NCBI RefSeq assembly: GCF_029227915.1
Contig: NC_079882.1
Coordinates: 17,930,501 to 17,994,500 of the forward strand
From: Hydractinia symbiolongicarpus
Taxonomy: Eukaryota > Cnidaria > Hydrozoa > Anthoathecata > Hydractiniidae
DNA: 64,000 nt
Direction of reading: 5' to 3'
Shown here: one piece after another, positions 6,651 to 49,829 of the stretch
How positions within the stretch are numbered: the first letter of the stretch is position 1
How the letters are laid out: each line of letters begins with the position of its first letter
Program-made: the position numbers and the translations under genes
The notes under the pieces: model-generated
Databases searched by the model: none
Seen by the model: only the letters and a program-made list of their open reading frames with translations
Told to the model about the DNA's origin: nothing

Positions 6651-6887
6651 TCATTTCTCATAAACATATTTCGAATAGTATTTACCTAATTTCAAATCAC
6701 AGAAATGGAGTGGAAATCTACCTGCCGGTGGAATGAGTATGATTTGTCGATTCACATCAAAACCATGGCCGAGCCATGCACCAAAGCTTGTATTCAATCG
6801 ATGCTTGACCGTCAAGCGCAAGTTTGCCCTGTCTCGATCATATATTTCATGTAAGCCTACAACTTGTTTTGACAGATTATTCACCAT
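6651..6887 (-). CDS. Unrecognised Polinton ORF
   Basis: A 78-residue ORF (MVNNLSKQVVGLHEIYDRDR..., FGAWLGHGFDVNRQIILIPP) that overlaps the end of the next upstream ORF (6877-7329) by about 11 bases. I do not recognise a domain. Overlap and co-orientation suggest both derive from one transcript or one frameshifted gene. Confidence 0.3.
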   Translation of the reverse strand: MVNNLSKQVVGLHEIYDRDRANLRLTVKHRLNTSFGAWLGHGFDVNRQIILIPPAGRFPLHFCDLKLGKYYSKYVYEK

Positions 6888-7329: not shown

Positions 7330-7509
7330 TACTTTTGCAAGGATTAAGCAGGAGTATCAACAACATCAAAAATATTAACAAGTTCAGTCATTTTGTTTAT
7401 TATACGTCGAAAGCGTAAAAAAATAGTAGTACTATTATATACGGTATAATTATCACAATATATAGCATCAACAACAACATCAATATCCCATCCATGTTTA
7501 TTTACCGAT

Positions 7510-20043: not shown

Positions 20044-21297
20044 GAAACAGGACTAGCAATAAATTATTTCAAAAGAAGAAAACCGTTTTAATACTATTAT
20101 TTTTCATTAAAATACAACTATAATAGTATTAGAAGCAAAATTGCAAAATAATTAATTAATTATTTATACAATAATTAGCTATAATACAAAGAAATAAGGC
20201 ATATTTTGGGTCTGTAAAATATACGTGTCTAAAATTCCGACTACCGTTTCTTGTTCACGGCATACTGATCTTTGTGTGTTCAAGTTCGGCGGACGTATAA
20301 CCTGGACCAAAAGACGGGGGGGGGGTCAAAATCCGGGGGTACGAGCCGTATTTATTGCATTTTTTACTAGACTTATACTTTAACCCCTCGGTCCAAACTT
20401 ATTTGTTTTATTAGAAAAAAAAATATCCTAGCTTTATGTGCAAAAATATCAGTCCTATTTCTTTACGCTGATTTTATATGATTTTTTTTCTATCGAAATT
20501 TTGAGAATCTCAATAATTCTCTTGGTATACCTCGCGTGTAGTAAACGTGCTCCACAATTTCGCTTCGCTTGCAAAGCTCAATTGCTTCGCAATAATTACA
20601 GTTGCGTAGCTATAGATATTGGAACATATGTAGCTAGCTAGCTAGCTAGCTAGAAATTTCAATGCAGAGTGGGTTATTTTTAAAGTTGTTGTTGTTGACC
20701 AAAAACGTAGAGAGTTCTGCAATTGCTTTATGTTAAGAAGATAATTCTTTATTATTCTTGTTATCTTAAACACTTGTAATATATAGCTAATAAAAGCATG
20801 CACCATCTAACTTTCATATGAAAAATCTTTTTTATACCAATTTTTAATTTTCCCGAAATAGGCCCGGAGCACACGTAGACTGATAATAACTTCCTGCAGA
20901 TGTTAATAGCTTACTACTAGGATATGTCATCTGAGGAATTTTGATATTAATTTTTGTTTATCTTATTTCATTTATAGATTTTTTGTTTGTTTTTCTTGTG
21001 TTTTTTTGTTTGTTTTGTCTTTGTCTTCTAATTTATTTCTACCACGTATATATATATATATATATATATATATGTCTATCTTATTTTTTTTGTTGACAGG
21101 GGGTTGATTAGATTTATCTATTTGACTAGCTCTCCTGTTAGGTTAGATTATTGCATTATTTATACTCTAGACAATTTTTTTTTTTTTAAAAAAAAGTTAT
21201 TTTTTGTAATATAACTTAACAAATAAATGTATTTACTTTACTTACTTACTATTAATACAAATCTGTCAATTTTTAAAAAAAGTTAATTCCTAACCAA
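20044..21297. other. No gene; microsatellites and one dispersed repeat
   Basis: Contains the inverted copy of the 681-760 repeat at 20516-20591, a GCTA tetranucleotide run at 20631-20654 and a TA run at 21050-21073. No supported gene. Confidence 0.6.
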
Positions 21298-23421: not shown

Positions 23422-23564
23422 TTAATAAACTGTATATGTTATGTATATATATATATATATTTTACTAAAAAATATTTACAAAAAACTTCTTTGGTATATT
23501 TTGTACATTTTTTATTTTACCAAAGAAATATATTTACAAAACATTTTTGCTATATATTCTAAGT

Positions 23565-25110
23565 TTATTTGCTCACAACACTTAAATTTAAATTTACAAG
23601 ACCTGCAATTGACACCATAACATCGTCAATTAAATCCACTTGTGAAATTGGTATTGTGGAAGATAAAATTAAAAATTTTTTTAAACGTCCAATGACTCTT
23701 TCTACATGTATTAGGACATGTGCTATTTGGCGCGATATGTCGACATCTTTGGCAGACATTTGGTTTTTTTCTCTAGTAAAAGCTGATATGCGCAAAACAG
23801 CCCCTCTCGTAGCAAGTTTTTCTTCCACCAAAAAGCCTCGATCTGCAAGAACACAGTCACCATGTGTTAAAAAATTTAAAAAACCTGATTCAATTGTAAT
23901 TACTTTATTCGAAGCTTTTCCACCCCAACCTGACGAAAGAAAACTAACAGCACCAGCTGGAGTAATTCCAATTAAATACTTTATTGTATTGTGCGATTTA
24001 TAATTTGAATAAGTTTGTGCTCTGGCATTTAGGTTTAACGGCCTTTCAATAAAAATCTCTGTACAGTCGATTATACTAACACAATTTTTAAAACTTTTAA
24101 AGCAGCTAGGGAGATTTGCTCTCAGAGCTTCCCTTTCTGGCCAAACAATTAAATTTTTTAAAATATCTGAAATTTCAGGAAGCCAAGTTCTATAAATTGT
24201 GGACACTTGACCTTCACTTATATTGAAATGAAGAGCAAGTTCTTTGTTTATATTACCAAGTTTCAATTTCATTAATACAAGTAAAAGGTGATTTTCGGCT
24301 GAGAAAGTAATTAAAACTTTCTTGGCTGTTCGAGATACAATTTCTAGTAACCATTCAAATAATGCAGGTTTTCGAATTCCTGTCAAGAAGTTTAACCTTT
24401 TTTCTTTGATATTATCATAGTCTAACAATTTACGCTTCACAGCTTTCAATTTTGCTTGCGTTTGTTGCAGTTGAACTTTCAGTTTATTTTCTCTAAATTT
24501 ACTTTTACACAGCTCCGATTTTAGCATCTTTTCTCGTGCAGATACTTTGTTTTCTGTTTGTGTTGCTAAAAATAATAAATTCAGTACGTAAATAAAAGCA
24601 AGCCAGCAAACATTGGGAGGAAGAAATTAGCTAGCTATACTTACCAGCATCTACTAGAGTAGAAGTCGTTTCATCTTCCACCATCATATCCTCTACTTCT
24701 TGTTCATCACTTTCTGGTTCAACTCGCTGCCTTTTTTGTAACCTTTCATATCGTCCCAACGACTCTCTGATTCTTTTCTCTGGGGTTTTTGAGAAGGAAA
24801 ATAATGTTGGCACATAATCTATGTGGTTTGGGTCATCCGATTTTTTTCCTTAATAAAAAAATGTTTTTAAAGTAAAAAGAAGCTAAACTAGCTAGCTAGC
24901 TAGCTACAGATCAAAAAAATAAAAAGCCTTGATACCTGTGGTGAAATGCTCACTGCATAAACGTGCATTATTTATCTGACTTTCTGGCCATTTGTCTCTA
25001 CGAATCGCTGCTACCCATTGTTTTCTTCTGTGTGCACTAGCTTGCGTCTTATCTGAAGTTATTCTGTAAAAACTGAGGTTTGTATTCTCCTTTGTCCTTC
25101 GGTCAGGCAT
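23565..25110 (-). CDS. THAP-domain DDE transposase (DDE_Tnp_4/Harbinger-like)
   Basis: Three exons: 25110-24936, 24848-24645 and 24565-23565, all joined in phase 1 with canonical splice sites. Exon 1 encodes a THAP domain (LSFYRITSD, RRKQWVAAIRRDKWPES, ARLCSEHFTTG). Exon 2 links GKKSDD and HIDYVPTLF (the AVPTIF-like THAP end) to an acidic stretch. Exon 3 has a coiled coil (residues 10-45 of the exon), an HTH (KELALHFNISEGQVSTIY) and the catalytic core: IIDCTEIFI (D), VLADRGF (D) and IHVERVIGRLK (E). The DDE triad is intact and the exon is fully open. Oddly, the first THAP cysteine pair appears to be missing (NYLRFGNMPDRR where the family has C...C). The start is therefore uncertain and an upstream start in the same frame is possible. 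Confidence 0.8.
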
Positions 25111-26832: not shown

Positions 26833-26935
<103 letters not shown>

Positions 26936-26999
26936 ACGCTATATCAACCTTAGGTGGACACTCTGAAAATTCGAACTAAAAGTGGACATATAAAAACCA

Positions 27000-28380
27000 T
27001 GTTTTTTCGCAAACCCTTACCCCCTATAACCTTTATTTTTGTATAAGGAGTATTCTTTTTGTCTGCGTATGCGCCCTGTATGCCTTTTTGCCTCTTAAAA
27101 AAAATTTGAAATTTTTGTGTCTACATAACGATTCCATATGATTTGTGTCTACTTTAAGAAAATTTTTACATTAGATCGACTAAATGTAGACAGATATATA
27201 TTTTATATACATGAGCGTTAAACCCGATCATCTGATAATTATTAATATTGAACTGCAATATTGTCTTTTTAAAGACATTTGTCTCATTGTTGTAAGTGAT
27301 ATTTTTTATAATCTGTATGAAAACAAAAAAGAAGCACACGTTAGCAGCTGTCCAGTTCGGAGAAAAAATATAAAGGAAAAAACACAAATTATAGCATCCT
27401 TAACATGTATTTAAGAGTATGTGAATTTGTACCAAAAGTTTGGTTACAATTTAAGAACTAGCTTAATGAAGCAGCAAAATGCGTGGAAGTGGTTTATGTG
27501 GGTACAAAACCAACAAACAACGAATGCAACAATTGCGCTTTGTAAAGAGGATCTTAAGCAACATTAAGGGCATTAAAACTGTTGCTTTTGCATGTATTCG
27601 ATCCGATACGTTTTTTACAGGGTTCACATACAGCTTTTAAACCAAATTTTTCCCTGACTTTTCATTGAATTCTATATTCTTTGCCCTGAGTCACTGAGTG
27701 GAAAGGCCATGATTTCCCAGCATACAATCAGTAAAAAAAACCCTTTCAAGACATTTTGTAGTTTGCAAACGAACACAACTTATACTGTTTTTGCTATGAT
27801 GTAGTAACTACGGGTTATAAATTTTCCTTAAATTTTTTTAAGATTTTGAGGTTTTTAAGGCTGCTGGGTTTGTTTAAAAAGATACAAAACTAAGAGTGTC
27901 AAAATAAAAGTGTATTCCTGAAACTTCCAAACACATGACATGCGTAGTAATAGACTCCTTTGAACATAACAAAAATCAAAAAAGAAAGAAGAACACCTAA
28001 ATCTATAATATGCGTTATTAAAAACAACAGAACAAGGGTAAAAATGAAAAAAAAGGGTAAACACATAAAATTCAGTATTTTCATACATTTTTATATGCAA
28101 ACAAAAAAACAAAAAACGATTAATCATTTGCTGCTTCTTCGAATTTAAATAAACGAACCTGGATAACCAAGCAGTTATATCTTACTAATTCCACAGAAAT
28201 TAACTTCCTTTTCCTTTTTCTCATTTGACACTAGTTATATAATGGGGCTGCGTAAGGAAGGACTGAGAAATCAAGAAACGTACGCTAAATGATAATCTGT
28301 TTAACGCCTTAAACCTTCCTAAATGTATCACCTTGTACGAACTATATCACGAATAAACGAGAAATAACTGTGTAAACAAG
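27000..28380. other. 3' part of the large element, no gene seen
   Basis: AT-rich sequence downstream of the recombinase gene. Two TGTCTAC-type motifs (27119, 27153) may be decayed copies of the terminal GTGGACA motif in inverse orientation. Nothing else supported. Confidence 0.4.
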
Positions 28381-28757
28381 ATACCTTCAGGGAATTAATT
28401 TTCGCGGGGACTTATTTTCGCAGAATTTTTTTTTACTAGAATTTGGCGGGAAAAAAGGGAATTTATTTTCACAAATTTAGTGTTGAAGAAAATTTCGCGG
28501 TAACTTATTTTTGCGAATTATGCAAATTTGGAAAAACAACTATTCCGGTGAGTTATTTCGAAACAACATACAGAAGAGAAAGGAAAATGTCCCAGAGAAA
28601 GTTATACATCCTTGTCTTTTGTATCAGGCCGATTTGGAAATTTCCCAGATCAGGGATATTTAAACTTTTCGCGGCGACGTATTTTCGCGTTTTTGGAAAA
28701 ACTCCGAAAAAACCGCGAAACTTAATACCCGCGAAAATTAATCCCCTTAAAAGATAT
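28381..28757. mobile_element. Non-autonomous element with TTCGCG subterminal motifs
   Basis: The left end (ATACCTTCAGGGAATTAA) and right end (reverse complement of TTAATCCCCTTAAAAGATAT) are inverted and related to the ends of the 764-2387 HIRAN element. The interior repeats (G/C)AACTTATTTTCGC-like motifs in direct orientation, then inverted ones (28715-28740). No ORF is recognisable as HIRAN or transposase. It is a short MITE relative nested in the large element. Confidence 0.65.
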
Positions 28758-29174
28758 ACTTCACTTATGAGAGCCAGTTTTCTTATCACATACAGTTATG
28801 AAAACCACACAGTTCAAAATATTTTTCATGGGAGAGGGGGGAGAGTTGAATTAAATTATCGTTGATCATACATTTTGATTGTTAAAACATGATTGAAACC
28901 TGTATAGAAATTATCCTCGTGACTTTAACACTTTTTCTTGCCTTTCTCCCCGTCTAAGGGGTGACGGAGTGATGTGTTGTTTAGACTTGAATTTTTTAGA
29001 GTATACTCAAGAAAATTTGATGATGATAAAAGCTGTCACATTATTTATAAAAACATGTATAGTGTACATGTTTTTATAAATGTACTTTTGTAAACATAAT
29101 AAATAATTATAAACATGTACTTTTATGGTAACGTAAAAATAATAAAAATAAAAGAAACCAAAGCTCTATCACAA

Positions 29175-29484
29175 TTAAACAATGTTCATTTTCTTTTTTT
29201 TCGCTTCCGCTTGTCGTGCTATTTTTCCTCTTTCATTGTTAATTTTATTTCGAACAGTTCCAACAGTAATTCCTTCCTCGTTGGCGAATTTTTTCAGATC
29301 ATCAGAGCCTACACATACACAAATATTAGATATTCAAAAACATGTTTTCATAATTAGTGCAAAACATACATGTCATACATACAAGGCCATCCATTTTTTT
29401 TATTTTTTATATGTCTTGCAAATTTTTTGTATAGTTTATCCTCTTGCTCTGACGACCATTGAATGTATTTTCTTTCTTGTTGAC
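29175..29484 (-). other. C-terminal SANT/Myb-like exons
   Basis: Two exons (29484-29383 and 29308-29175) encode YIQWSSEQEDKLYKKFARHI followed by LKKFANEEGITVGTVRNKIN and a basic tail ending at TAA. The W...E...L..F spacing and the second helix-turn-helix-like block fit a SANT/Myb-type DNA-binding domain, also seen at the end of related recombinase genes as I recall. It probably helps recognise element ends. Confidence 0.55.
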
Positions 29485-32400
29485 CTGTAAAAGAAAACAT
29501 TACAAGATTAATTTATACACGAAAAGGGCATACAAATTTCAATGATTTCATTCTTATTTCGTCCTCCAATAGAAGAGAAGAAATTGTCGCGGAAGCAATT
29601 TTTGCGGATGGATGCTTTCAAAAATTGTATGAAATATGCGAAATAAAAAAGTTACGAATAGTCTCATTTAGTTGCAATTGAAAATCTTTAATCAGATTGT
29701 TGGAATCTCAACTTTGCGGATGTCCGCCCTTGTCTGGTAATTTGTGGAATTTTGGTTTGTGAAAACAAATTCGCAAACATTAATTCCGCCATCTTTATTA
29801 TCATTTTCATTTCTTTATTTCAGTATTTCTTTAATGAATTTTTTTCCATATTTTAAAAAGGTTAATTATCTATATTATAATACCCGTTTACGTCTGTCTG
29901 TCTGTCTGTCACGCAAAATGGTAGCTTAGCTGCGCAATAGCGAGAAGCACGCAATGCGGTATAAAAAGGACGGGCGAACCCGTGGATTTTCCACGGGCTA
30001 ACGACGAATAGCGAATTAATAATTATTAAGTATTATAGGGATTAAGATAATCTATTTCTTTTTATTAGTTTCTGTATATTTTCGGACTCCAATTTCAAGA
30101 ATATGGAAATAAATATTGTGAAAACGGATACGATGATTTCGGATCTAAGCTGTCTGCGAGTTGTATCAAATAAACTTTCGTGTTCAAGTACAATAATTTC
30201 ATTTATTTGACGCAAAATATTCCACTTTAGCAATATTTTCATTTTCGGCAATTACGCAGCAATTTTTAAGATATTATTCTTTTTAGCTGTTGTTTATCAC
30301 CGGTAAGTACAATCAACTAATTTTTGCAATTTCATATACTATATATAGACAGACCAAGAAATTAAAAAATATGGTACTTTTTGATTTTTCTTAGTAAGGA
30401 GTTATACAGTATTGTTGATTAACAAAACCTCACCAGTGCATTTTACAGAATTCTCGAGTTCGCTATCTTCACTTGATTCAGACCATTCAGAAGGTTCATC
30501 ATCGTTCACATTTGTAAAATGTTTGGATTCTTCAGATGTTTCTAAACCGTTAAAAACATTGTAACTTTATTGAAAAATCAGGAAAAAATTAGGGAAAATC
30601 AGAATATAAAGCATCACTTTGCAAACAACCAGTAACTTGTTTATAAAGAAGTTAAATGCTGACAAAAAACAAACAACACAGGATATCATTTTGAAAACAC
30701 AAAATCATGGAAATCAAGACATACTTTGAGAAACGTTCTTTTCTTTTCTAAGTGCATACTTTCTCGTGGGTGCTAAAAGGAAAACGGCTTTCAGTCATTT
30801 TGCAATCAGGTATTGTAACAAAGTTAACTTACACAACAGAAATACTAAAAAAATTGACTATTTATACTGTCCTTCCCTAGTAACAAATATTATGTGTGAT
30901 GTTTTATGACGTCACTATAAATCTGAGATCGTGTTTTCGCTATTGACCATCTAAGTCGAATAGGTTGGTTTTTCACGTAAATTTTGTTTACATAGGGGCT
31001 TTTATTCGAAGCCCTGTTCTGAAAACAAACATTTTATTTGCAACGTAAGGCTCTAATGATTCAAAAACGAAAATGTTTCCAATAATACATAATATTTTGT
31101 GAATAAAATCTTATTGTTACGCAATGAACTAACCGCAAGTTTTCTCTTTTTTAAATGTATCGTTTCGATGAGTTTGTCTTTTTTCTCCCACTTGTACACT
31201 TTTCTTCATTTTCTTTTTATTCGGTAATTTTACAGTGTTCGCTTTACTTGTGTCTTTTTCAGCATTTTCATCTACAAAATACATTTACAACGTAATTCAA
31301 GCCTGTATGTAGGTAATTACGAACAAGTTAGACCTGAATAGAATGAAGAGTCAAAAGAACTTACTTTGGAAGAATTTCAAAATTAAATTTCTTGTTTGAC
31401 TGCTCACAAGGAAAAGAAGTATGCCAATATGAACAGCCATAATTCTAAGTTTTACCTCTAAATTTTTTTTCATTTTCTTCAACTAAGTTAGGACCCTTTT
31501 TCTCGAAGTTATTGTCATTCTTTATACTTTGCGCTATAAGAAGATATGCGTTTGTTTCACTTTTAAAAAATTGATACACAAGAATAGACTACAGAAAAAC
31601 AGCTCACCATTATCAAGGACAGATAGATGTTTCCCAGTTGACAATAGTTGTCGATGAGCAGCTGGTGCTTGGTATATCGTTTTGTTAATTCTCTCACTGT
31701 GCCCAAAATGATCATAGGCCAAACTCATATCGGACTCTGATAGACCTAAACCAGCAATTAAGGTACTAAGGCGATGTCGGTTACTTGTACCACTAATTCT
31801 TTCTCTGTTGGCAATTGGAAGTTTTGCACAAACATTATCTAAGCTATGCCATCCAGAGCAATGATTATCAGAACCTTGGGTACTGGGAAATATGTATGAG
31901 TTTTCTTCAAGGACACCAGCATCTTTCCTTACTTGCTCGTTAGCCAACAACTTCATTGCAGCAACAGTATCTTTAGGAATAAAAACAGGAACTAAATGGT
32001 TGACTCCTTTTCCCGATTGAAATGTGATCTTTGTCCCACTGCTTAAGTTAGTTTCTTTTGCAATATCCTGTATCCGCTGTTTGTCTAACCATTCATCCTT
32101 TTCAGCTTCAATCCACTGCGTAACGGTTAGACGCGATGGTTCTCCACCTCTTCGGCCATTATACAGCACAAGACGAGTGCAAGCACAATCACGTAGTTCA
32201 ACAAACGTATGTCTGTCCATGATGATAAATGGATCTGATGATAAGTGGCGTATCCTTTCAATCACATAATCTCGAATTAGTTGGACATCGCCTTCGTTTG
32301 GAAGTTGTGCAGGTTTTTTAGTTTTTACATTCCTTCTCATGTTTAAATCATACGTTGCGTCAGCGAATATTTCATCTTTGCGTAATTTCAGCAATACCAA

Positions 32401-35400
32401 AAAGTTTTTAATTTTTTCTGCATCAACATCATTATTTTTACCAAGGTAATAACCAATTAGTTTTTCGGCGGCGTCTTTCAACACGTAGTACAAGGCTGCC
32501 TTAAGTCCTGACTTTTGAACTTCCAAATCAGAATGAGTGTAGGATTCAATAGAATATTTCAGCACCTCAAAATTTTCCCTCAGAAACATGTCACCAGCAT
32601 TGTTTTTGTCATTACAACAATCTCTTGGTACTTCCAACACCCTATCTTTAAATCTGGAATAAACATGTGCCAGACGACGCATGTCGCTTCGAACAGACCG
32701 TTCAACTTCCATCTTTTTGTTTAGTCTTCTTTTTATTTTGCCATAGAGGCGATGACCAACCATCAAAATAACGGGATCCGATTTGGCAAGAGTACCAACG
32801 GCATCGTCTCTGATGATGTTCAAAATTCTCTGCTTAAATTGATCATCCGATAGCTTCCATGACTCATCACTAGTACAATCCAGAGCAATTGTAACAGGAA
32901 ATTGACAGGAGTTCTTTGAGCAGTCTGCCTTGTGCCTAGCTTTAAAGGTTTTGGCATAAAATCCTTTGCAGGTGGTGCACATAACAAGTGGGTCATCTGA
33001 ATCGTTTTGCTTTTCACGCAACAAATTTCTACCGCCCTCCTCAATTTCTTTAACATTATGATTATATATGCCAATTTTTCGAAAGTTAGCGAAGGCTCTC
33101 AGTCTTTCTTTTCGAGGCATGTTCAAAGCATCCTTTACATCTGGATGATGCTTATGACATAAAGTGATGTGTCTATTTAATTTCGAATGCTTGATCTTTT
33201 TATCGCAAACAAAACAGGGTCTCAATGGTCTTGAGTTTATCTACGAATAAACATCACGCCTAAGCTACTTAACCGTTTATTCTTACAAAATGTTTAGCAT
33301 CAGATTTATCAGATTTGTCGGAGACAAAGGGGTTCAAATAAGCAATTTAGGAAAGAAGCCAATATTACAAAAAGAAGCTCTTGAGCATCAGTTATTCTTG
33401 TTTCAGCAAAGAGTCTGGATTCAACTTTTAAATGCAGTGACTTAACGGCGTCAACGAAACACACAAAAAATAAAATTACCTGTTTGGCTTCTTTTTCCTC
33501 AGATTTTCCCACTTTCTAGTAAAAAAAGCAAAAGGTTATAAAAGTTAATATATCAAGTGCAAAACATAAGAATACATTTTTAGCATCCAGTGAAGTTATG
33601 GATTATCTTGTCAAGATCTTTTAAAATAAACAAAAAATAAACACTACCTCGTTGGCGCTTTTCTTTACAGATGTTTCTTTCTTCTAATAAAGATACAAAT
33701 CAGGCTATAGGAAAGATGTCAATCGCAACATTATGTACATACATTATGTTCAATTCTTATTTGATTCGATTGCTACGGCATGTCATATCCTTCCAATGTC
33801 AAATGAAACGCCGCCTTTAGTTCGTTTGATGTAAATTCTAGGCCTTATTATAATATATAAAATAGAGTCGCTTTTTATAACTAGAACAAACTAATAGTTA
33901 CACAACATCGGGTATTTTAGAAGGCTAAAGAGGTACATACTTAAAAATATGATTAATACTTTCGACATAAAATACCAATAAACCCTATAATTAGAAGGAA
34001 CCTAACTTTAACTTTGGATTTTAAAGATTGCGTAAAAAAAGTCAGGGATTAAGAAAGAGAAATGACACTATGCGTAAAAAAATGATAACGTCAAAGATTG
34101 TAGTTATGCAAACCGAACATTCTCCTTATAGGACCACGGAACATTACCTCTATAGCAATACTGTTCTCCACTTTTCCTTCCTCGTCTGTATCAATGATTT
34201 CCATATCGTCTTCAACATTTAATCCGGAATCATTTTTCACAGAAATCTGAAAGAATCGGCATTAAACAATTTATTTTAGTAGGGTAATTTTATAGCATAA
34301 CGTGTTATTTACCATAAATCTTCTTTAAATACTTATGATCAATTAAGATAAAAACCTTTTGATTTTTACGTATCCATTTACACTTTCCTCGTTTGCATAA
34401 CAAAGTATTGTATGGAATTTCGGAATATCATACACTAAGCTGCTATCAAGTTACCTCACATATGGATGGACTGTCCGTAGTAAAATCAACCTCAAGATTG
34501 TCTAAAAAAATTAAACCTATTTGAAACCAAAATAACAAAGGACACTTTTTAGCCAATGGACCAATTAAAATAAATACTTAAAACAGACACAGTATGGCTT
34601 TTTTAAAACAGATAAAAACAGTTTATAAAATGGGACTTGATAAAGGTGAGCGGGTTAGTATTTACGAATAAAAGCGAGCAGGTTATGAGTTCTAAGTTAC
34701 AACAACAGAGTCCTTTTTGGAAATCCAGTTATATATCATATGAGAACATGCTTTATTCAGAAGGATTTTTTGAAGGCCCAGAATTCGAATAACAACTTAA
34801 AATCATTGCACTAAATGCAAAAAGAATCAGTCACATTGGAGCTTAATAGAAAATTAATTTAATGTAGATGGCAGCTTTACCTTTATCAATACTTGTTTGC
34901 ACACCTGAAGCCTATGAACAAGACAAATGTGACTTTTACTTTTAAGTTAAATTAAATTAAAGAAGGGAAGAGAATAAATTTAGTTAGCAGAATTTTTTCA
35001 TGGCATACAATTAATATTTATGCTATCTTTATACTTCCTAGATTATGGCAAACAAGCGTCTAGAGACTTTCAATTTAAAAACGAACACGCGAGATTATAA
35101 ACTTAGAGAATTGACCACTGAATTATAAAATAGCAGTTGTTTGGTATCTTTGACGGCAATAAACAAATCACTCAATCTATTTATGGCGTTATGATTTATA
35201 ATGAAAAATGTTACACCATGAAAATTTTACAGCGTTCATTTTCACAATTTTAATGAATTAAAATTGTGGAAGTTGTTTTGAAGTTCCTATCATACCTTAT
35301 ACTGAACTGATAGTTTTCTAGTCTGTATCGGAGTTGAAACTGTGACCTAAGAGCATTTAAATTTATATAATTGATAGTAATTTTAAATGCAATTATGTCT

Positions 35401-38400
35401 AGGAAGCATGACATTCAACAAAGTATGTATTACAAAAGCCTATACCAGTCCGATTTCCTCATATGGACAAAGGTTTAGGTTTAATTTCTTGAATACGCAA
35501 AATTATAAATTACTTACAGACGAAATATGATTCAAAGTATCCAACTCTGAAATATCTTCTGCCTCTTCAGAATCTTCAACCATGGACTAAAAGGAGAACA
35601 AACATTTTTATTGTTATCAGCAATTATGCTAACACAAACAAATTATGATTTAAATTAATTTAACATTAGTGCCGTAATTTCTGTTATGTAAACCGTCAAT
35701 GTAATCATAGAAATATATATGACCACAACAATAATAAAGCAAAACTAAAAAGTCCATGAATAGTGCACCAAACTCAAATAGGCTTACCATAAAGGGAAGT
35801 AAATTTATTAACCTAGTAAATAAAGACGTAAAGAATTTAAATAATATTAAACTTTATAACACCAAGACTCTCCATTGCCAGCACTGTGACATTAAGAAAA
35901 AAGAAACAAAAATTATACATGTTGCCACTTGATTTTAGTCCCTCATCTTCACTGTCTGAAAAATCTGGCACCATATTTTCCATCTTAAAAATAAAGAATG
36001 TTAAATTTAACAAGAACTAGTTTAAGATTTGGCACACTCAATTTACAACATTTTTTAAAAAAGTTTGTCTTATTCCTATGCTAGAACAGATTGTGTGCTA
36101 TGTTTCATAAAGCTTGTATTTCTTAGCAGCCACTCTGAAAACGAGTCTTAGAAGCTTTGAATCAAAAATAACAATTTTAAAAGAACCAGGTATGTAAAGA
36201 TTCAATTCTCTAATAAAAAAAATCATTTTTACTTGGCAGCCCATGGCTCAACTGGGATTTTGTACCTGGCCTTTAAAAAATAATAAGGTGATGCTTTTCC
36301 TTAAACAGCAAAATGTAGTAGCTTTACCACTTTACATACTTCAATTTACATTGAATTTTTTATAAAATTAGAAAATATAACAAGTTTATCACCTGAGTTG
36401 CCACCACATCATCAAGCAATTTTTTGAGAATATCTGTAATGATACCCACATTTTCGTCATTATCCTCCTTCTAAGAAGATATTATCAGTGTTCACATTTC
36501 AAAAAACAACATTCGTTTTGCTATATCAACTGTGTCTTATTTTTTATCACGTTTACCTTTTTTGCAATGACATCAGAGGTCAAGTTATTCTTGCCTTGGA
36601 CCAAGGTCAAGTTCTTACTCAACACCTGAAACAACAAATATCATAGAAAAGGAAGATCCCAAGAAACTAGAAAATGGATAAAACATATTGCTAATGGACG
36701 ACCTTATTATATGCACACTTACTATTTATTACATGTAATATAAAAACTTACTAGCCTATCTGAAACTAGGTCTTCTAAATTGAATGGTATATTATGTGTT
36801 GGATCCTACAAGAAACAAACAGTTTTATTTGACTGTTCTTTCATATATGTATATATCTTTTATCCTAGAAGTTTTTTTTAAAACATGTCCGAAAGCTGTG
36901 TTCAAAATAAAAGCTGTTTGACATACAACATACTTGCAGACAACAAGCTTAGGCATACTCAAAAGAGGAAAATATAAATTTTGTTAATTGTGTGCTACCT
37001 TTTGCCATTCTAGCCCTGAAATTCCATAATTGTATCGCAGTTCAGTTCCTAAAGGAATGTCATAGGAAGCAAACAAACATATGAATGCATTTCCACCCTC
37101 CTCGATCAATTTTGGATAACAATTCAAATATTTCCGATGACTTGAATGGTTCACATATTTTCCCAGCCTGGTCTCATTTGTAGCATCAACACTAAAAATT
37201 TAAAAAATATATTAAGACATAGAGAACTATAGAAGGGAACTGTTTGTAGTTTCGTTTTTATCTTTACCATAAGATGTTTTAAATCAAATTGCAAAAAATC
37301 CAAAACAGAAATTGTTTATGTCTATATGTAATTTGATGTAAAAGCTAAGTAGTCTTAACTTCCTGGTGCTACTTTGGTACGTCAAGCTTACATAAAACAC
37401 ATCTACACTCCAATTCCTAAATAAGACCTTCTATTTTCACCTTAGCTATTAGGTGAATGTGATCCAACTTCAAGTGCCTCCCCAAATGAAACTGAAAACA
37501 AAAGGCATTCTCAATTCGACATACCACTTTTTGTCCATAAAGAAAATAAATGATCCACAGGAAGTTGGATACTCTAGCTCTAATCTCTCTCCTTCCTTTC
37601 TTGTGAGAACTTTTCCAGGATATTGCAGGACAAACTGGTGATGTTTCAGGGGCAATGTTGTAAACACACCATATCCTACAAATATATGTTTACCACACAT
37701 CTATTCTGTAATCATTAAGAAGTTAAGTTATAACAGTTATTCAAAAAAATAACAAATTTACCAATGTGATCATTAATCCATTTCTTTACAAATGATTTTG
37801 GATCAGTTCCCCTTTTACAATAATATAGTGCAGTTTGTCTTGGCGATTTAACATCATTAGCTCTACTTCTTTTCGTTCTCTAAAGAGAATTAAGTAATAC
37901 AAGTGAGTCAGTAAAATAATGCCGAAATTATCATTTGAAATTGGACATATCAAAAACATAAATTTTAAAACTTAAAGTGGACATATACATGGATATTTCC
38001 TTTATACATATTTTTGAATAGTTGAAACTAATATGTCGAAATTGTCATCCTAAAGTGGACATATCAAAAACATAAATTTTAAAACTCAAAGTGGACATAT
38101 ACATAAACATTTCCTTTTTAAATATTTTTGAATAGTTGAAACTAATATGTCGAAATTATCATCCTAAAGTGGACATAACAAAAACATAAATTTTAAAACT
38201 CAAAGTGGAAATATACATACACATTTCTTTTTTAAATATTTTTGAATAGTTAAAATAATTTTATCTCAAAATTATCATGCTAAAGTGGACATGTCAAAAA
38301 CATAAATTTTAAAACTCAAAGTGGAGATATACATAAACATTTCCTTTTTACATATTTTTGAATAGTTAAAACTAATATGTCAAAATTATCATCCTACAGT

Positions 38401-41400
38401 GGACATATCAAAAACATAAATTTTAAAACTCAAAGTGGACATATACATAAACATTTCCTTTTTACATATTTTTGAATAGTTAAAACTAATATGTCGAAAT
38501 TATCATCCTAAAGTGGACATAACAAAAACATAAATTTTAAAACTCAAAGTGGACATATACATAGACATTTCCTTTTTAAATATTTTTGAATAGTTGAAAC
38601 TAATATGTCGAAATTATCATCCTAAAGTGGACATAACAAAAACATAAATTTTAAAACTCAAAGTGGAAATATACATACACATTTCTTTTTTAAATATTTT
38701 TGAATAGTTAAAACTAGTCGAAATTTTTCTTTACATATTCTTGAATATTAAAAATAATTTTATCTCGAAATTATCATGCTAAAGTGGACATATCGAAAAC
38801 ATAAATTTTAAAACTTAAAGTGGACATATACATTTTCTTTTTACATATTTTAAATAGTTAAAACTAATATGTCGAAATTATCATCCTAAAGTGGACATGT
38901 CAAAAACATAAATTTTAAAACTCAAAGTGGACATATACATAAACATTTCCTTTTTACATATTTTTGAATAGTTAAAACTAATATGTCGAAATTATCATCC
39001 TAAAGTGGACATATCAAAAACATAAATTTTAAAACTCAAAGTGGAAATATACATACACATTTCTTTTTTAAATATTTTTGAATAGTTAAAACTAGTCGAA
39101 ATTTTTCTTTACATATTCTTGAATATTTAAAATAATTTTATCTCGAAATTATCATGCTAAAGTGGACATATCGAAAACATAAATTTTAAAACTCAAAGTG
39201 GACATATACATAGACATTTCCTTTTTACATATTTTTGAATAGTTAAAACTAATATGTCGAAATTATCATCCTAAAGTGGACATATCAAAAACATAAATTT
39301 TAAAACTCAAAGTGGACATATACATAAACATTTCCTTTTTACATATTTTTGAATAGTTGAAACTAATATGTCGAAATTGTCATCCTAAAGTGGACATATC
39401 AAAAACATAAATTTTAAAACTCAAAGTGGACATATACATAAACATTTCCTTTTTACATATTTTTGAATAGTTAAAACTAATATGTCGAAATTATCATCCA
39501 AAGTGGACATATCAAAAACATAAATTTTAAAACTCAAAGTGGACATATACATAGACATTTCCTTTTTACATATTTTTGAATAGTTAAAACTAATATGTCG
39601 AAATTATCATCCAAAGTGGACATATCAAAAACATAAATTTTAAAACTCAAAGTGGACATATACATAAACATTTCCTTTTTACATATTTTTGAATAGTTAA
39701 AACTAATATGTCGAAATTATCATCCTAAAGTGGACATATCAAAAACATAAATTTTAAAACACAAAGTGGACATATACATAGACATTTCCTTTTTACATAT
39801 TTTTGAATAGTTGAAACTAATATGTCGAAATTATCATCCTAAAGTGGACATGTCAAAAACATAAATTTTAAAACTCAAAGTGGAAATATACATAGACATT
39901 TCCTTTTTACATATTTTTGAATAGTTGAAACTAATATGTCGAAATTATCATCCTAAAGTGGACATATCAAAAACATAAATTTTAAAACTCAAAGTGGACA
40001 TATACATAGACATTTCCTTTTTACATATTTTTGAATAGTTGAAACTAATATGTCGAAATTATCATCCAAAGTGGACATATCAAAAACATAAATTTTAAAA
40101 CTCAAAGTGGACATATACATAGACATTTCTTTTTTAAATATTTTCGAATAGTTAAAACTAGTCGAAATTATCATCCTAAAGTGGACATGTCAAAAAAATA
40201 AATTTTAAAACTCAAAGTGGACATATACATAAACATTTCCTTTTTACATATTTTTGAATAGTTAAAACTAATATGTCGAAATTATCATCCAAAGTGGACA
40301 TATCAAAAACATAAATTTTAAAACTCAAAGTGGACATATACATAAACATTTCCTTTTTACATATTTTTGAATAGTTAAAACTAATATGTCGAAATTATCA
40401 TCCTAAAGTGGACATATCAAAAACATAAATTTTAAAACTCAAAGTGGACATATACATAGACATTTCCTTTTTACATATTTTTGAATAGTTAAAATAATTT
40501 TATCTCAAAATTATCATGCTAAAGTGGACATATCGAAAACATAAATTTTAAAACTCAAAGTGGACATATACATACACATTTCTTTTTTAAATATTTTCGA
40601 ATAGTTAAAACTAGTCGAAATTATCATCCTAAAGTGGACATGTCAAAAAAATAAATTTTAAAACTCAAAGTGGACATATACATAAACATTTCCTTTTTAC
40701 ATATTTTTGAATAGTTAAAACTAATATGTCGAAATTATCATCCAAAGTGGACATATCAAAAACATAAATTTTAAAACTCAAAGTGGACATATACATAGAC
40801 ATTTCCTTTTTAAATATTTTTGAATAGTTGAAACTAATATGTCGAAATTATCATCCTAAAGTGGACATGTCAAAAAAATAAATTTTAAAACTTAAAGTGG
40901 ACATATACATAGACATTTCCTTTACATATTCTTGAATATTTAAAATAATTTTATCTCAAAATTATCATCCTAAAGTGGACATACCAAATACATAAATTTT
41001 TAAACTTAAAGTGGACACATACATAGAAATTCCTTTACATATTCTTGAATATTTAAAATAATTTTATCTCGAAATTATCATGCTAAAGTGGACATATCAA
41101 AAACATAAATTTTAAAACTTAAGGTGGACATATACATTTTCTTTTTACATATTTGAAATAGTTAAAACTAATATGTCGACATTTTCATCCTAAAGTGGAC
41201 ATATCAAAAACATAAGTTTTAAAACTCAAAGTGGACATATACATAAACGTTTCCTTTATACATATTCTTGAACTAATATGTCCCAATTATCATCCTAACA
41301 TGGACATATCAAAAACATAAATTTTAAAACTCAAAGTGGACATTCATATTTCTTTTTAGATATTCTTAAAGAAAGTTAAATTTATATGCCAAAACTATAT

Positions 41401-43502
41401 ATTAAAGTAGATATGTCAAAGTCATAACTCGTAAAACTTAAAATGACCATATACATAGGCATCTCTTTTGATATTACATGTCTTTTTTGATAAGAAAATG
41501 AGCCTCAACAACCTTAAAATCTTAGGAAAGTTTTAAGAAAATCCCCGTCCTCCACGTGTCAAGATGCAATTTTTTAGACCACTTACAGTTACCAAATCAC
41601 CACAGTTTCAAAAAAATACAATCAAGTTTCTTTCTTTTAGTCAAATATACATCCTAATAAAGTTTTATCCTAAAAGTAACAAAATAAATCTTTTTTTTAT
41701 TAAAAATGTCTTCAATAAAATACATAAATAAAAGCATTCAACTAGTTCAATTTGGGAAAGTCAAAATAAGGGTACGTCTCAGTAAACGGTCACCACTCAC
41801 ACACCACAAAAGTCATCTCTGGCGTACCACAAGGAAGTGCGCTTGTACCGCTCATCTTCCTGATCTTTCTGTAAAGGACGCATCTCTCTCAAGCTTTGCA
41901 GATGATACAAGACTTACAATGAAGGTTAGCTCTGAAAGTGACATTGAAAATGTGCAAGCAGACCTAAACTTAGTCTACGAATGGAGCAAACAAAACAACA
42001 AAGAAAAAAGTGACTGACGTCCGTCGTCCACAACTTCAAAAGTTAACATAAGTAACATAAGTAATGATAAACATCATAAAGTGCACACATTGTAAAAGTT
42101 GAGTCAGTGGACACGCAGACATTTCTCTTACATATCCCTAAAAATTTTAGAACTGTTATGTCGAAATTATCATTGTAAAACTCAAAGTGAACATATATAT
42201 GCATAAATATTTCGTTTATATGTTCTTGAATACTTAAAACTTATGTATTGAAAATATCATCCTAAAGTGGACATATCAAAAATATAAATATTAAAAATCA
42301 AGGTGGACACATATATAGAGATTTCCTTTACATATCCTTAAATACTTAAAACTAATATGTTGAAATTTTCATCCCAAATGCGAGTCAACAATTACAACTT
42401 CACACACAACAATCTGGAAAATGTGCCTTGAAACAAGCAAAATTCCACCCATTTTTAAAACTGCTACCATCACCCCACAGCACAAAGGTGTCAATGCTCA
42501 ACATAAAGCATGAGATAATTGGAAAACAACAACATGGGTAGCAAGTTTTCATATTCGAAGCATGTACATTTGTAAATATACTGGCATATAAAAGTACTTA
42601 TTTCACTTAACAGAAATAATTTTACACCCAATTAAGAAAAAAATAAATTTACTTTTCGTTTTGAATGTATAGTTGTGACATGTTTATCACTTTGCACAAG
42701 ATTAGAAAGTCGTACATTTGAATCTAATAGCTATATAATAGCCTCATTTGAATGTGAATCTTACGGGATGGTTTGCACTCACTCGCACTCACTTACTAAG
42801 CATGAATAATATATAAGCATTTAATTTCTGATTAAATTTAAAGTATATATATATATATATATATACCTGAGTTCATGTTAAAAAAATCAGAGGCAAAGAA
42901 GGGTATATAATTACTTGGTCTGTAGAATAAAAAGAGGGTGCCGATAAGAACCATCAAAAACAGTTCTTTTAAGAACTTCGCTACCACATAGTAAGTTTAT
43001 TTTAATTTTTATAGTTTTTATGAATCATATCAGTGTCTGTTTCCTTTTGTTTTTCGGGCATTGTTCGGGCCTATGCGGGTTTTTTCGGGCGAATACCGAA
43101 TTTCTTACAAAACGCCGAACTAGCCGGAAAACGCCCGCACTTTTTACGGCGTATGCGGCTTATCGGCACCCTCGTAGAATAAAACACTACTAACATGTTT
43201 TCAATTAAGTCATGCAAAACTGAAAATTCAATCCTGTTGATTAGTGGCCACCAAAAAGTTTTGTATCCTAGATGTAAAGCTCCGGATATCATGTCATATA
43301 TAGCTATTCTGTGTTGCCTGGTGAAAGAGAAAGTTACCAAGAAAAATGAAATCACAGAATTAAAATGTTCAGGTGACACACAGCAGTTTCCTAAAGAGCT
43401 TTCACTAAGTGGCAAGAATTAGAAATGCTGAACACATAGTCCAACAACAAAATTTAAATTCCTACTTACAGTATTGTATTGAACTTGAGCTACCTTGGCC
43501 AT
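29175..43502 (-). CDS. KMT5A-like SET methyltransferase - tyrosine recombinase - SANT-like fusion gene
   Basis: My exon model (minus strand) is 43502-43470 (ATGGCC start), 37879-37762, 37675-37525, 37191-36999, 36805-36752, 36625-36557, 36470-36393, 35586-35518, [uncertain 34904-34881], 34501-34455, 34246-34148, 33683-33648, 33515-33480, 33240-31608, 31533-31456, 31271-31134, 30772-30725, 30541-30434, 29484-29383, 29308-29175 (TAA). Splice sites are GT-AG and phases agree throughout except around 34881-34904, where an exon is missing or misplaced. A further acidic exon-like piece at 35993 lacks a fitting donor. The order is SET domain, acidic linker exons, two zinc fingers, tyrosine recombinase, charged linkers, C-terminal SANT-like helices. 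No inactivating change was seen in the domain exons. Predicted nuclear. The model needs transcript support. Confidence 0.7.
29879..30011 (+). mobile_element. Short Helitron-like element
   Basis: Starts TCTATATTATAATACCCG, contains TCTG repeats, and ends after a hairpin (CCCGTGGATTTTCCACGGG) followed by CTAACGACGAATAG. A close copy with an intact CTAG end is at 56631-56780. No target duplication, as expected for Helitrons. Confidence 0.7.
31608..33240 (-). other. Zinc-finger and tyrosine-recombinase exon
   Basis: This single 1633-nt exon is fully open. Numbering from position 33225: two CxxC...H/C fingers at residues 4-26 (CFVCDKK) and 83-102 (CTTCKGFYAKTF...C); a helical core-binding region about 150-290; and the catalytic domain from about 310. 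Catalytic residues visible are R358/359 (LYNGRRGGEPSRL), R-H-R at 483-485 (SNRHRLSTL), H509 (HFGHSERI) and the candidate nucleophile Y518 (NKTIYQ). H-to-Y spacing of nine matches tyrosine recombinases. The architecture resembles multicopy animal recombinase-like genes I recall; affinity to Cryptons is possible but unproven. The set appears complete. Confidence 0.75.
36999..37879 (-). other. SET-domain exons (H4K20 methyltransferase KMT5A-like)
   Basis: Three exons (37879-37762, 37675-37525, 37191-36999) join in phases 1 and 2. They read KRSRANDVKSPRQTA, then GYGVFTTLPLKHHQFVLQYPG (SET-N, the GxG cofactor loop), SCGSFIFFMDKK, C-VDATNETRLGKYVNHS (the NHS cofactor motif) and IPLGTELRYNYG (catalytic tyrosine region). 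VDATNE...NHS and the final YNYG are the hallmark of KMT5A/PR-Set7 enzymes, which monomethylate histone H4 lysine 20. All key motifs are present, so the domain may be active. The donor at 37524 is GTATGT. The substrate is inferred from family resemblance. Confidence 0.75.
37900..41400 (+). repeat. ~115-bp satellite array (about 30 units) in intron 1
   Basis: Tandem units of about 114-117 bp, each with two copies of AAAGTGGACATAT-type motif separated by CAAAAACATAAATTTTAAAA, then TTTTTACATATTTTTGAATAG and ATGTCGAAATTATCATCC. Units differ by single bases and short indels. Diverged units continue at 42170-42380 beyond a LINE fragment. The array lies in the first intron of the SET/recombinase gene. 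The motif GTGGACA is the one at the ends of the surrounding element. Confidence 0.9.
41775..42015 (+). pseudogene. LINE reverse-transcriptase fragment
   Basis: Frames read VISGVPQGSALVPLIFLIF and, after a shift, SFADDTRLTMKV and LNLVYEWSKQNNKE, i.e. RT motifs around the FADD box. A second small piece at 42398-42540 reads IWKMCLETSKIPPIFKTATI, which is the earlier RT motif, so the two pieces are in permuted order. Both interrupt the satellite array. Confidence 0.6.
42933..43174. mobile_element. MITE with 10-bp target duplication, MULE-like (copy 2)
   Basis: Ends read GAGGGTGCCGATAAG (42934) and CTTATCGGCACCCTC (43159-43173). TAGAATAAAA flanks both sides. It shares its interior with 15769-16163. 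It sits in intron 1 of the SET/recombinase gene. Confidence 0.75.
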
Positions 43503-46504
<3,002 letters not shown>

Positions 46505-47110: not shown

Positions 47111-49226
47111 TCATTGCCTTTTTCGGCAACACATTGCTAGATCTTTCAAAAGATCAATACTACACTCGACTTTTGATCTTGATGGTTTTTCGACAACTAT
47201 ATCAAATGAATCATCCTCCATGTCACTGCCATCGTCTTCAGCTTCGTCGTCCTGAGATTTCCGAAATTCATCAATGATATCCTCATTAGAGATTTGAGGG
47301 GCGGTTGCGATAACCTCATCATCCAAGGTCACAAGATCATTAGCACTGAGATCATTTGGTACCAATGATGGATCAGCCTCTCTTAAATCATCCAAACTTT
47401 CTTGAAGATCTTTAAATGGGTCATCCGAATCAGCAATAGCATCCTGTTGTCCTGTAGAAGAGATTCCAGATTTCTTAAAACAATTGATGATGGTTTGTTT
47501 AGTTACAGCCTCCCAAGGATCAGCCAGTATCTTCATTCCGCTTAAAATTGAAATCTTTGGCAAAGGTTTGTTGTTCTCCAAAGCACTGCACAGCAAACGT
47601 ACAACTCTCCTTCGGTAATGCGCTTTTAGACTTCGTACGACACCTTGGTCCATCGGTTGCAACACAGACGTTGTGTTAGGGGGCAAAAAAACGAGATGAA
47701 TGTTTGTTAAGTTCGAGATCGATGGGTGTGCTGGACAGTTGTCGATTATAAGAACGATTTTTCTCCCGTCTACACGAAACTTTTGGTCCAGTTTCCGGAC
47801 CCAGTTTTCAAATATTTCACTATCCATCCAACTTTTCTTTTGTGATGTGTATTGGCAAGGGAGATGTTTGATGTTATTAAAGCAGCGAGGTCTTTTTGAT
47901 TTGCCAATGACGAACATTGGCAACTTTTCTCCAGTAGCACTTGCTGCGGCCATTCCAGTGAATCTCAACTTGCTCTTCTTCCCCCCAGAACACTTTTCTC
48001 CTTTGAGGTGGTATGTTTTCTCGGGAAGACATTGGTAAAACAAACCAAATTCGTCTGCGTTGAAAGTGTCCTCCAATTTGTAATTCGACAGAATGGTTGG
48101 GAGCGTGGTTTCGTTCCAGGAGCTTGTCATTTGATTTGTAACTGACTTACATTCACCACCGATAACTTTCAAGGAAATGCTGTGCCTGAAAAAGTAAATA
48201 AATAAAAATGTTTCGTGTAAACCAGCCCTTAATATTAATCGAACATAACACAATCGAACATAAATTTTAAGATTGGTTCGATTCGATTCTTATCTGTTTA
48301 CAAATTATATTGTTGAACACGTGGAGTGTAGTAGAATCTGTAATGAACAATATGGCTATAAATTTACTGGGACAAGAAATTGAATTAACTGAAAATATGC
48401 CACTCGTCGTTTTGTCTTCCACTGACATTACATCTTACATAAAAGGGTACCATGTTTACAAAAGTTTATGGACACCAGTCCAACAAGAAAAACTACAAGG
48501 AGAAATGGAACCTCACAACCCTGTCGACAAATACGCTGTAGCCGTTGAAAAAGATGGGAAAATAGTCGGACATTTGCCGTTAGGAGAAAATGGAAAGTTT
48601 GCTAAAACCATATTTTATTTTCCTTCGTGCTGATCAATTTGGGAGATGTGATATAACTGTTACTGGAAAGGCAGTTAATCTTGGAGATGGTGATGGAATG
48701 CAGGTCCCCTGTGTTCTAAGCTTATCCGGGCAAAAGTCAATGGTAGAGATTTTGAAAAAACAGAAGCTGTAATTTTAGTGTTTGATATGTAATCACGTTG
48801 TTTTTATACACGAAATGAAAATTATAACTATGTTATTTACCTTTTTTTCCATTTGTCCAGCCAACCATCGGAAGCCTTGAAACTTGAACAATCAAAGTTT
48901 TTAGCAAAACTGAGTGCCTTTTCTTTTATCAAATTGCCATCGATCGGAATGTTTTGGCTTCTTTGAACAGTAAACCATTTGAAAACAGCCTTGTCTATCT
49001 GCTCATAATCACAGCCTCGAACCTTTTTCGAACCAGACGCGGTTTTTTGTTCTTCCAAGCTTTGTAGGATCTTATGTTTTTTTTTCATCCAAGTTGAAAT
49101 TGTATTTTTGGGGATCCCGTATTTTTCTGCTGCCTCCTTGTTTGACATTCCTTTCTCGATTTCCCGAATTATTTGACATTTTTGAATTAAAGAAACGTTA
49201 TTGAGTTTTCTTTTTAAAGCCGACAT
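47111..49226 (-). CDS. Tigger/pogo transposase (CENP-B-like HTH plus DDE_1)
   Basis: Exon 1 (49226-48841) starts MSALKRKLNNVSLIQKCQII and has a pipsqueak/CENP-B HTH (NKEAAEKYGIPKNTISTWMK), then the CENPB-type second HTH ending SDGWLDKWKKR. The donor is GTAAAT. Exon 2 (48185-47111) follows a TTTTCAG acceptor and continues HSISLKVIGGE. The catalytic residues are visible as FNADEFGLFY (D), LIIDNCPAHP (D) and LQPMDQGVVRSLK (D), the DDD form typical of Tigger/pogo. The C-terminus is acidic (DDEAEDDGSDMEDDSFD). The frame is intact, so the enzyme may be functional. The 655-bp intron hosts an antisense HIRAN gene. Confidence 0.85.
48343..48772 (+). pseudogene. HIRAN-domain protein, one frameshift, nested in transposase intron
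   Basis: From ATG 48343 (MNNMAINLLGQEIEL) the plus strand encodes YIKGYHVYKSLWTPV, NPVDKYAVAVEKDGK and IVGHLPLGENGKFAK. Near 48605-48625 the frame shifts by one base and continues as FGRCDITVTGKAVN and VPCVLSLSG, ending at TAA 48770-48772. The pattern matches the HIRAN gene at 1450-1938 position for position, including the final VPC/IPC strand, but lacks its basic tail. It is entirely within the intron (48840-48186) of the opposite-strand transposase. A single indel is the only obvious defect. Confidence 0.65.
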
Positions 49227-49829
49227 CTTCACCTCAAGAAGGTTTCTGGTTCAAAACACTGTAAACAATGCTTTGTGAGTGACTTTAGAATTCGAACGTC
49301 AAACATTTTCGTTCGAAAATGGAACATTTTAATTCGATTTTTAGTGTAAATAGGTTCTTAAATCCGGAAAAGTTCGAGATAGAGAGAGAAACAGTCAGAC
49401 GGGACCGAGATTTTGGTTCGAGATAGAGAGGTATTCGAGATAGAGAGGTTCGAGATAAAGAGAGGAAAATAGCTTAGAGCCTACACAAATGTCCAAGGGA
49501 CCGAGACTTTGGTTCGAGATAGAGAGATGTTCGAGATAGAGGGTAGTCGAGATAGAGAGAGTCAACTGTATTCTGACCCATTGATTAAAGTATATAAATT
49601 CTTACAAAAAAGTTCTCAACTTTCTTGACAAATACTATTCTTGTTATTCTTAGTTATATTCTTAGCATGTCTATGTCCTGAAAATATATAAAGCCTTAAT
49701 AAAATAAAGCTTGCTATAAGTTGCTATAGCTATTGGCAAATTCTGTTATTTTAGAACAAACAATCGAGGTTGGACATATTCTTAAGATATCCCTAACTGA
49801 CCCTGTGTATATTCTTACAAAAAAATATG

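Follow-up and report, generated by a model that had tools for sequence, protein, structure and literature searches.

A 64,000-nucleotide stretch of the genome of the hydrozoan Hydractinia symbiolongicarpus (contig NC_079882.1, positions 17,930,501 to 17,994,500; hereafter the window, in whose own numbering positions are given) contains a gene, LOC130657627, whose product is predicted to combine a SET domain with a tyrosine recombinase (YR). We found that this gene is carried by a repeated unit with fixed ends, the SET-YR element, which is most likely a recently mobile, multi-copy, intron-bearing DNA transposon. It is highly probable that the element both encodes the SET-YR protein and is moved by it. 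The fusion (as a gene model), the predicted folds, the catalytic residues, the copies, their ends, the target preference and an empty site are the observations on which this reading is built. One protein of a recently mobile element would then join a fold that cuts and rejoins DNA to a fold that modifies histones.

The SET-YR gene and its product

The initial annotation of this DNA had proposed one minus-strand gene in which SET, linker, recombinase and C-terminal exons follow each other in agreeing phases. Between 43502 and 29175, 22 minus-strand exons whose phases agree and whose borders are GT/AG were spliced. Their product of 1105 amino acids matches P0001, an NCBI gene model, at every residue; the protein database lists P0001 under Hydractinia symbiolongicarpus as uncharacterized protein LOC130657627 isoform X3. 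The stretch 35983-35518 requires a micro-exon of 25 nucleotides (35812-35788). As the independent annotation equals the spliced product, the SET and recombinase exons were already joined in one transcript model, and the proposed gene was borne out. Both the gene and the fusion thus hold, but the gene is not a solitary one, as the initial annotation had it: it belongs to a multi-copy mobile element in TA microsatellites. The gene model, two structure predictions and recurrence in several phyla support the fusion of a SET domain of the histone-methyltransferase type to a tyrosine recombinase.

The SET domain, described at the outset as KMT5A-like, matched PF00856 (E 3.9e-12) in a profile search and was predicted to adopt a SETD8-like fold, SETD8 being the closest SET family of the fusion protein. 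An alignment read by eye showed the NH motif, an intact GxG loop and the last active-site Tyr in LOC130657627; among the compared SET domains, all 11 that cover the loop have it, and all 14 that cover the Tyr position have the Tyr.

The catalytic set of tyrosine recombinases is R-K-(H)xxR-H/W-Y. It was found in order in the recombinase exon, with one site departing. Among 123 aligned rows, R748 and R749 are present in all, K796 in 122, R873 in 121, and H899 and Y908 in 120 each (three gapped). The residues first listed as R358, RHR483-485, H509 and Y518 correspond, in exon numbering and with an offset of 5, to R363 or R364, R488-H489-R490, H514 and Y523, and are conserved in relatives. Pfam gave no integrase match for the recombinase exon of LOC130657627 alone, a PDB sequence search with this exon returned chance-looking matches only, PF00589 was found in 6 of 57 relatives, and DUF3504, the type of the CryptonA YRs, in none of the 57 at E 0.1. 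The comparison of predicted structures, which matched both the core-binding and the catalytic part of the recombinase fold, settled the identity of the exon and agreed with its first description as a recombinase. The proposed zinc fingers were also recovered: across 89 aligned rows, each of the zinc-ligand-like residues C9/C12..H24/H29 and C88/C91..H103/C107 is either without variation or conserved to 90% or more. The proposed SANT-like end was not: the C-terminal tail is confidently predicted as a helical domain, and no SANT/Myb match occurred among the Pfam hits of four homologous tails.

Copies, ends and target sites of the element

In a SET search of 481 Mb on 76 contigs, the SET exons were found at ten further genome places with equal score and equal stop counts. 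Counting the window, 10 places have the YR exon at full length, and at one of them it is a base shorter. A further copy of this exon is divided over two contigs, with one part at the end of C6 and the other at the start of C41, and we read the two parts as a single copy; an older one on C11, 96% identical, is decayed, with gaps and an in-frame stop. Six of the ten copies that were fetched are colinear with the window at 99.96-99.98% over 12.1-17.5 kb, and in the remaining four the match is interrupted by the tandem array, an insert or Ns. Along a stretch of 5.2 kb, each of the ten copies has 0-2 substitutions relative to the window, with 14 extra gap positions in C6a. All 23 exons, the optional one included, are letter-identical in five of the ten; in the C4, C6b and C15a copies one or two exons are not identical to those of the window, and C6a is without exon 1 and has 6,489 Ns in the fetched stretch. 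The C15b copy (G000:C15:7402258-7422257; L025, L026) is split by an insert of 3,474 bp with a 540-codon frame and, on the opposite strand, a frame that by eye is HIRAN-like and similar to two such frames in the window (below).

Identity among the copies stops at the same two points, window 26937 and 44423. The C6d copy is cut by a contig end, and the C19 copy sits on a contig of 20 kb. In the C9 copy the initial 133 bp of the element are missing, and for C6a, where the fetched stretch starts with Ns, no left end was found. The 400 bp of the left end occur at 10 places, all of them listed copies, so that no shortened derivatives were detected by the left end.

All 10 right junctions that were read (C6d has none) lie in perfectly alternating (TA)n tracts of 28-404 bp, and all nine left junctions with the end present lie in such tracts of 41-360 bp; elsewhere in the window, over the 46,288 bp that do not belong to the element, tracts of (TA)8 or longer add up to 60 bp. 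In the window copy, ACATA interruptions break up the TA tract on the right, and the tracts of most other copies are purer. The 500-bp left flanks are unrelated to one another at E 1e-5 except for those of two C15 copies, and the right flanks showed no match to one another. The window also holds a paralogous empty site, in which relatives of both flanks of the C4 copy surround a short TA tract and the element is absent (Table 1). A natural animal recombinase with a microsatellite target is thereby suggested.

The motif TGTCCAC occurs 68 times on both strands of the window, against 4.0 expected from shuffles. Its arrangement near both ends and in intron 1 (Table 1) suggests that GTGGACA/TGTCCAC is a putative binding site of the SET-YR protein. 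The SET-YR gene is the sole recognisable gene in the element: between 26937 and 44423 no stop-to-stop frame above 141 codons was found besides the YR exon, which leaves room for a spliced DDE gene, and the Pfam run covered the SET-YR protein and not the short frames. A frame of 109 codons on the plus strand of intron 1 (41688-42017) looks by eye like a reverse-transcriptase remnant.

Table 1. Positions of the SET-YR element, its gene and its target sites in the window
Feature	Position	Strand	Basis
Complete mobile element, 17,487 bp, gene orientation minus; ends read ...(TA)n followed by GCTAAATCGCCCTAATGTGGACA, and TGTCCACCTAAGGTTGATATAGCG followed by TTATATA...	26937..44423	-	Copy comparison; loss of similarity at both ends
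SET-YR gene, 22 coding exons, 1105 amino acids	29175..43502	-	Equality with P0001
Exon 1 with start codon	43470..43502	-	Gene model
SET domain exons (37879-37762, 37675-37525, 37191-36999)	36999..37879	-	PF00856; SETD8-like predicted fold
Linker exons, mostly low-confidence (disordered) in the model, micro-exon included	33480..36805	-	Structure prediction and gene model
Exon coding for two zinc-knuckle-like motifs and for the entire tyrosine recombinase (core-binding and catalytic part)	31608..33240	-	Alignment and fold comparison
Optional exon, skipped in P0001	31456..31533	-	Splice signals present
Last two exons, C-terminal helical domain	29175..29484	-	Structure prediction
5' subterminal region: GTGGACA at element positions 17, 50 and 67; TGTCCAC at 81	44337..44423		Motif scan
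3' subterminal region: inverted copies of the motif at 18 and 46 bp from the end, within an imperfect terminal inverted repeat	26937..26988		Motif scan
Tandem array in intron 1, unit about 114 bp, 53 TGTCCAC in a single orientation	37919..41343		Repeat and motif scan
(TA)n microsatellite on gene 5' side, target site	44424..44546		Junction reading
(TA)n microsatellite on gene 3' side, target site	26834..26936		Junction reading
Paralogous empty site: short TA tract bordered by relatives of both C4 flanks, left and right; element absent	20937..21256		Flank matches

Other parts of the window also resemble mobile elements. At 22026-24626, a YqaJ-type exonuclease frame (PF09588) on the plus strand adjoins a DDE_Tnp_4 transposase with HTH_Tnp_4 on the minus strand, a pair that is perhaps an ISL2EU-type relative of Harbinger. 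A pogo/Tigger-like transposase (DDE_1, E 1.6e-42) lies on the minus strand at 47111-49250, with a frame upstream that by eye is like a helix-turn-helix. Reverse-transcriptase-like frames were seen at 17613-19307 (weak RVT_1 match), 54480-56150 (by eye gypsy-like) and 62989-63768 (by eye like a retrotransposon without long terminal repeats). Minus-strand frames at 6877-8364 look by eye like the type-B DNA polymerase of Polinton-like elements, and Pfam found nothing in 7513-8364. The HIRAN-like frames of the window are at 1402-1938 (PF08797 E 0.0064, below its cut-off) and 48271-48633 (by eye).

Relatives of the fusion protein

A protein search centred on the YR, with 8000 candidates scored, gave 179 matches, of which the best 120, together with three more proteins, formed the set of 123 aligned proteins. 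Using a profile grown from the SET-YR family itself, we counted a SET domain in 15 of these, always N-terminal to the YR; it is partial in five (P0066, P0087, P0099, P0101 and P0115). The named carriers in Hydractinia are LOC130657627, LOC130612732, LOC130629325, which also has a protein kinase domain, and LOC130649644. Hydra LOC124810008 is another cnidarian carrier, and the architecture recurs in Anneissia (LOC117104801 and LOC117115204), Strongylocentrotus (LOC105437092), Diadema, Apostichopus (BSL78_12013), Haliotis (LOC124124735) and Styela (LOC120330366). A search with the SET part alone (query P0002; 181 candidates scored among proteins of 0.55 to 1.75 times the query length) returned four proteins: the query, P0125 (139 bits, divergent) and P0126 (541 bits), both with a YR, and a Babesia protein without one. 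In a tree of the YRs of 28 of the 123 proteins, nine hydrozoan proteins formed one supported group (100/99), and SET-bearing members fell both inside and outside it. No viral relative of the YR was confirmed among 29 pattern matches from a two-motif scan of IMG/VR, nor any viral or prokaryotic relative among 40 further pattern matches.

In the genome, 23 YR loci were listed, from 33 scored rows of 667 candidates after ten rows (six kinase-part rows and four second pieces) were dropped. A SET match lies upstream, on the same strand and within 20 kb, at 16 of the 23. Random placement of 19 of the loci (those on C17, C18, C19 and C60 were left out, and several contig sizes were rough guesses) gave a mean of 0.05 and a largest value of 2. 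Nine of the 16 loci are the window's own element, four belong to the P0061 family and three are single loci. Conversely, at least 18 of 112 genome SET matches, a number that includes split exons and other SET families, lie upstream of a listed YR locus.

The P0061 family (C14, C17, C18 and C60) has SET, protein kinase (Pkinase E 2.8e-28) and YR in one protein, at several near-identical places, although the C14 and C17 copies may partly be assembly or segmental duplicates. No ends of a P0061 element were reached: one side runs into Ns, and on the other side two copies are alike over all 7 kb compared. Another multi-copy family (L004, L005 and L006), viewed in loci of 3.3 kb, by eye has a KMT5A-like SET that starts a frame of 517-518 codons and is followed by a zinc-finger-like part. 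KMT5A-like SET domains in Hydractinia may be carried by more than one type of element.

Mechanism, alternatives and known systems

How might the SET-YR protein serve its element? The protein would bind the inverted GTGGACA motifs near both element ends, and the recombinase would join the ends into a circle, a presumed intermediate. The circle would then be recombined into a (TA)n microsatellite so that TA is left on both sides, with a TA core as the likely crossover site. At the bound protein, the SET domain could methylate nucleosomes on the chromatin of the element, presumably at lysine 20 of histone H4 (H4K20), going by family resemblance, and perhaps also at the array of 53 motifs in intron 1. 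The element might benefit because its expression is kept in the early embryo, or because movement is coupled to DNA replication. Methylation by KMT5A favours replication licensing, and a copy-neutral recombinase would need coupling to replication to multiply, so that a replication link is a possible benefit of the SET domain. The SET part may plausibly act by marking chromatin where recombination takes place; that H4K20 methylation would hide an insertion, an example offered in the initial annotation, is a conjecture. As to a SET role taken by itself, that is, nucleosome methylation in the service of the element, we consider it possible but lean towards doubt.

Several observations weigh against this reading of the element and its protein. 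With regard to the SET domain, the NH motif on the side of S-adenosylmethionine is present in only 2 of 13 covering domains (LOC130657627 and P0049) and is ND in nine and something else in two, as judged by eye, so that methylation by those relatives could be weaker. Moreover, no SET was detected in 108 of the 123 relatives, many of which look like fragments or single exons while some may truly lack it, and 7 of the 23 listed YR loci in the genome have no upstream SET match; thus, not all YRs of the family depend on a SET. With regard to the recombinase, the His position of HxxR is a Thr in LOC130657627 and in 114 of the 123 rows, and the recombinase exon of one copy differs in length by one base. 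With regard to movement, the two C15 copies have 243 bp of left flank in common at 99%, any target-site duplication is hidden because the junctions lie inside TA repeats, and target choice alone is no proof of YR-driven movement since DDE-driven elements also enter (AT/TA)n, as described in PMC10871703.

The alternative that survives best grants that the element is real and driven by the YR and takes the SET as only a nucleosome-docking part that brings the recombinase to chromatin. The change from NH to ND in 9 of 13 compared SETs would fit such a role, and binding of the H4 tail alone could guide integration. LOC130657627 itself, however, keeps the NH, the GxG loop and the active-site Tyr as well as a SETD8-like predicted fold, and we regard pure docking as unlikely, if still a serious contender.

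That the gene is instead a host chromatin regulator, an extra H4K20 methyltransferase with a fossil recombinase tail that was multiplied by gene duplication, as is implicit in the published view of the KMT5A-like expansion, seems quite improbable. In its favour, many such genes of Hydractinia and sea urchin are activated in the embryo and conserved (PMC10368294), the catalytic SET residues are partly conserved, and some family members may be domesticated. But about a dozen units have fixed ends and TA-tract sites, their flanks are unrelated except for one left pair, and an empty site was found; on the copies, the ends, the TA-tract junctions and the empty site, a host gene family expanded by duplication was set aside. 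The recombinase residues are, in addition, intact in nearly all 123 relatives, whereas domesticated Crypton-derived genes have lost theirs in the account given in PMC3212892.

It is very improbable that the unit is a passenger moved by another enzyme, such as a DDE transposase acting in trans, with the SET-YR gene only as its cargo. The insertion of a crab nimavirus into (AT/TA)n has been ascribed to a Ginger2-like DDE enzyme (PMC10871703), and the ends of the element do form an imperfect inverted repeat; however, the YR keeps its active-site residues, and its exon is the only frame above 141 codons in the element, the short frames having had no Pfam run. An assembly artefact or a chance joining of exons, as might be suspected from the C6/C41 copy cut by a contig end, the small contig of C19 and the Ns of C6a, has next to no probability: it is largely refuted by the exact match to P0001, and the same architecture occurs in other phyla and in chromosomal copies with different flanks.

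Movement of the element by its own SET-YR protein bears on the known expansion of KMT5A-like genes. Up to 65 such genes have been counted in Hydractinia, 24 in Hydra, 61 in sea urchin and one in Nematostella, and 22 predicted H4K20 methyltransferases are activated in the Hydractinia embryo (PMC10368294). Most have an N-terminal SET, and the longer ones of Hydractinia and sea urchin share a C-terminal end (PMC10368294). LOC130657627 resembles them in species, in its N-terminal SETD8-like SET and in its conserved C-terminal region, and we read their shared C-terminal end as the YR. The words recombinase, integrase and transposase are absent from the main text of PMC10368294, whose figures and supplementary tables may name further domains. 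The expansion may be at least partly, perhaps mostly, transposon-borne, a reading checked on YR and SET loci of the genome rather than on the published gene models. It offers a testable explanation for at least part of the KMT5A-like expansions in Hydractinia, Hydra and sea urchin, and cautions against taking all KMT5A-like genes as host chromatin regulators. A wider proposal would make SET-YR an ancient class of animal transposons that writes its own chromatin; the KMT5A-like genes of hydrozoans and echinoderms would mostly be transposon genes, and the embryonic wave of H4K20 methyltransferases would be transposon expression, with H4K20 methylation deposited at recombination. Such deposition would possibly be coupled to replication origins. 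We hold this proposal tentatively, at just short of an even balance, and its probability is lowered by the small share of SET matches that lie upstream of listed YR loci. In the openly licensed PMC literature we found no paper that connects KMT5A or SETD8 with a tyrosine recombinase, although a description elsewhere, for instance in Repbase Reports, is possible, and none that links a Hydractinia transposable element to Crypton.

Among known systems, SETMAR (Metnase) is a primate host gene in which a SET domain is fused to a mariner transposase, and HarbingerS and MuDR are DDE transposons of oomycetes. SETMAR is like SET-YR in having SET and a transposon enzyme in one protein, but it is a single host gene, whereas SET-YR comprises about a dozen element copies and its fused enzyme has the YR fold. 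The HarbingerS and MuDR transposons of Phytophthora carry SET histone methyltransferase genes (PMC12730594, citing Kojima and Jurka 2014) and so share with SET-YR the transposon-borne SET gene; in SET-YR, however, the SET lies within the recombinase protein, is KMT5A-like and occurs in animals. According to PMC10871703, the YRs of crustacean nimaviruses target microsatellites or ribosomal DNA, and in sesarmid crabs a DDE enzyme targets (AT/TA)n. Endogenous nimaviruses (majanivirus and others) resemble the SET-YR element in their zinc-binding part with a YR and in microsatellite insertion, but they are large viral genomes that enter telomere-type repeats (PMC10871703). Animal Cryptons are eukaryotic DNA transposons that encode a tyrosine recombinase (PMC3212892). 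The SET-YR element is like them (CryptonA and CryptonI) in this respect, with the YR as its probable mover. However, animal Cryptons are described in PMC3212892 as having neither terminal repeats nor a C-terminal domain, whereas the SET-YR element has both inverted terminal motifs and a C-terminal domain, and its N-terminal SET, its 22 exons and its TA-microsatellite target further set it apart from the Crypton description.

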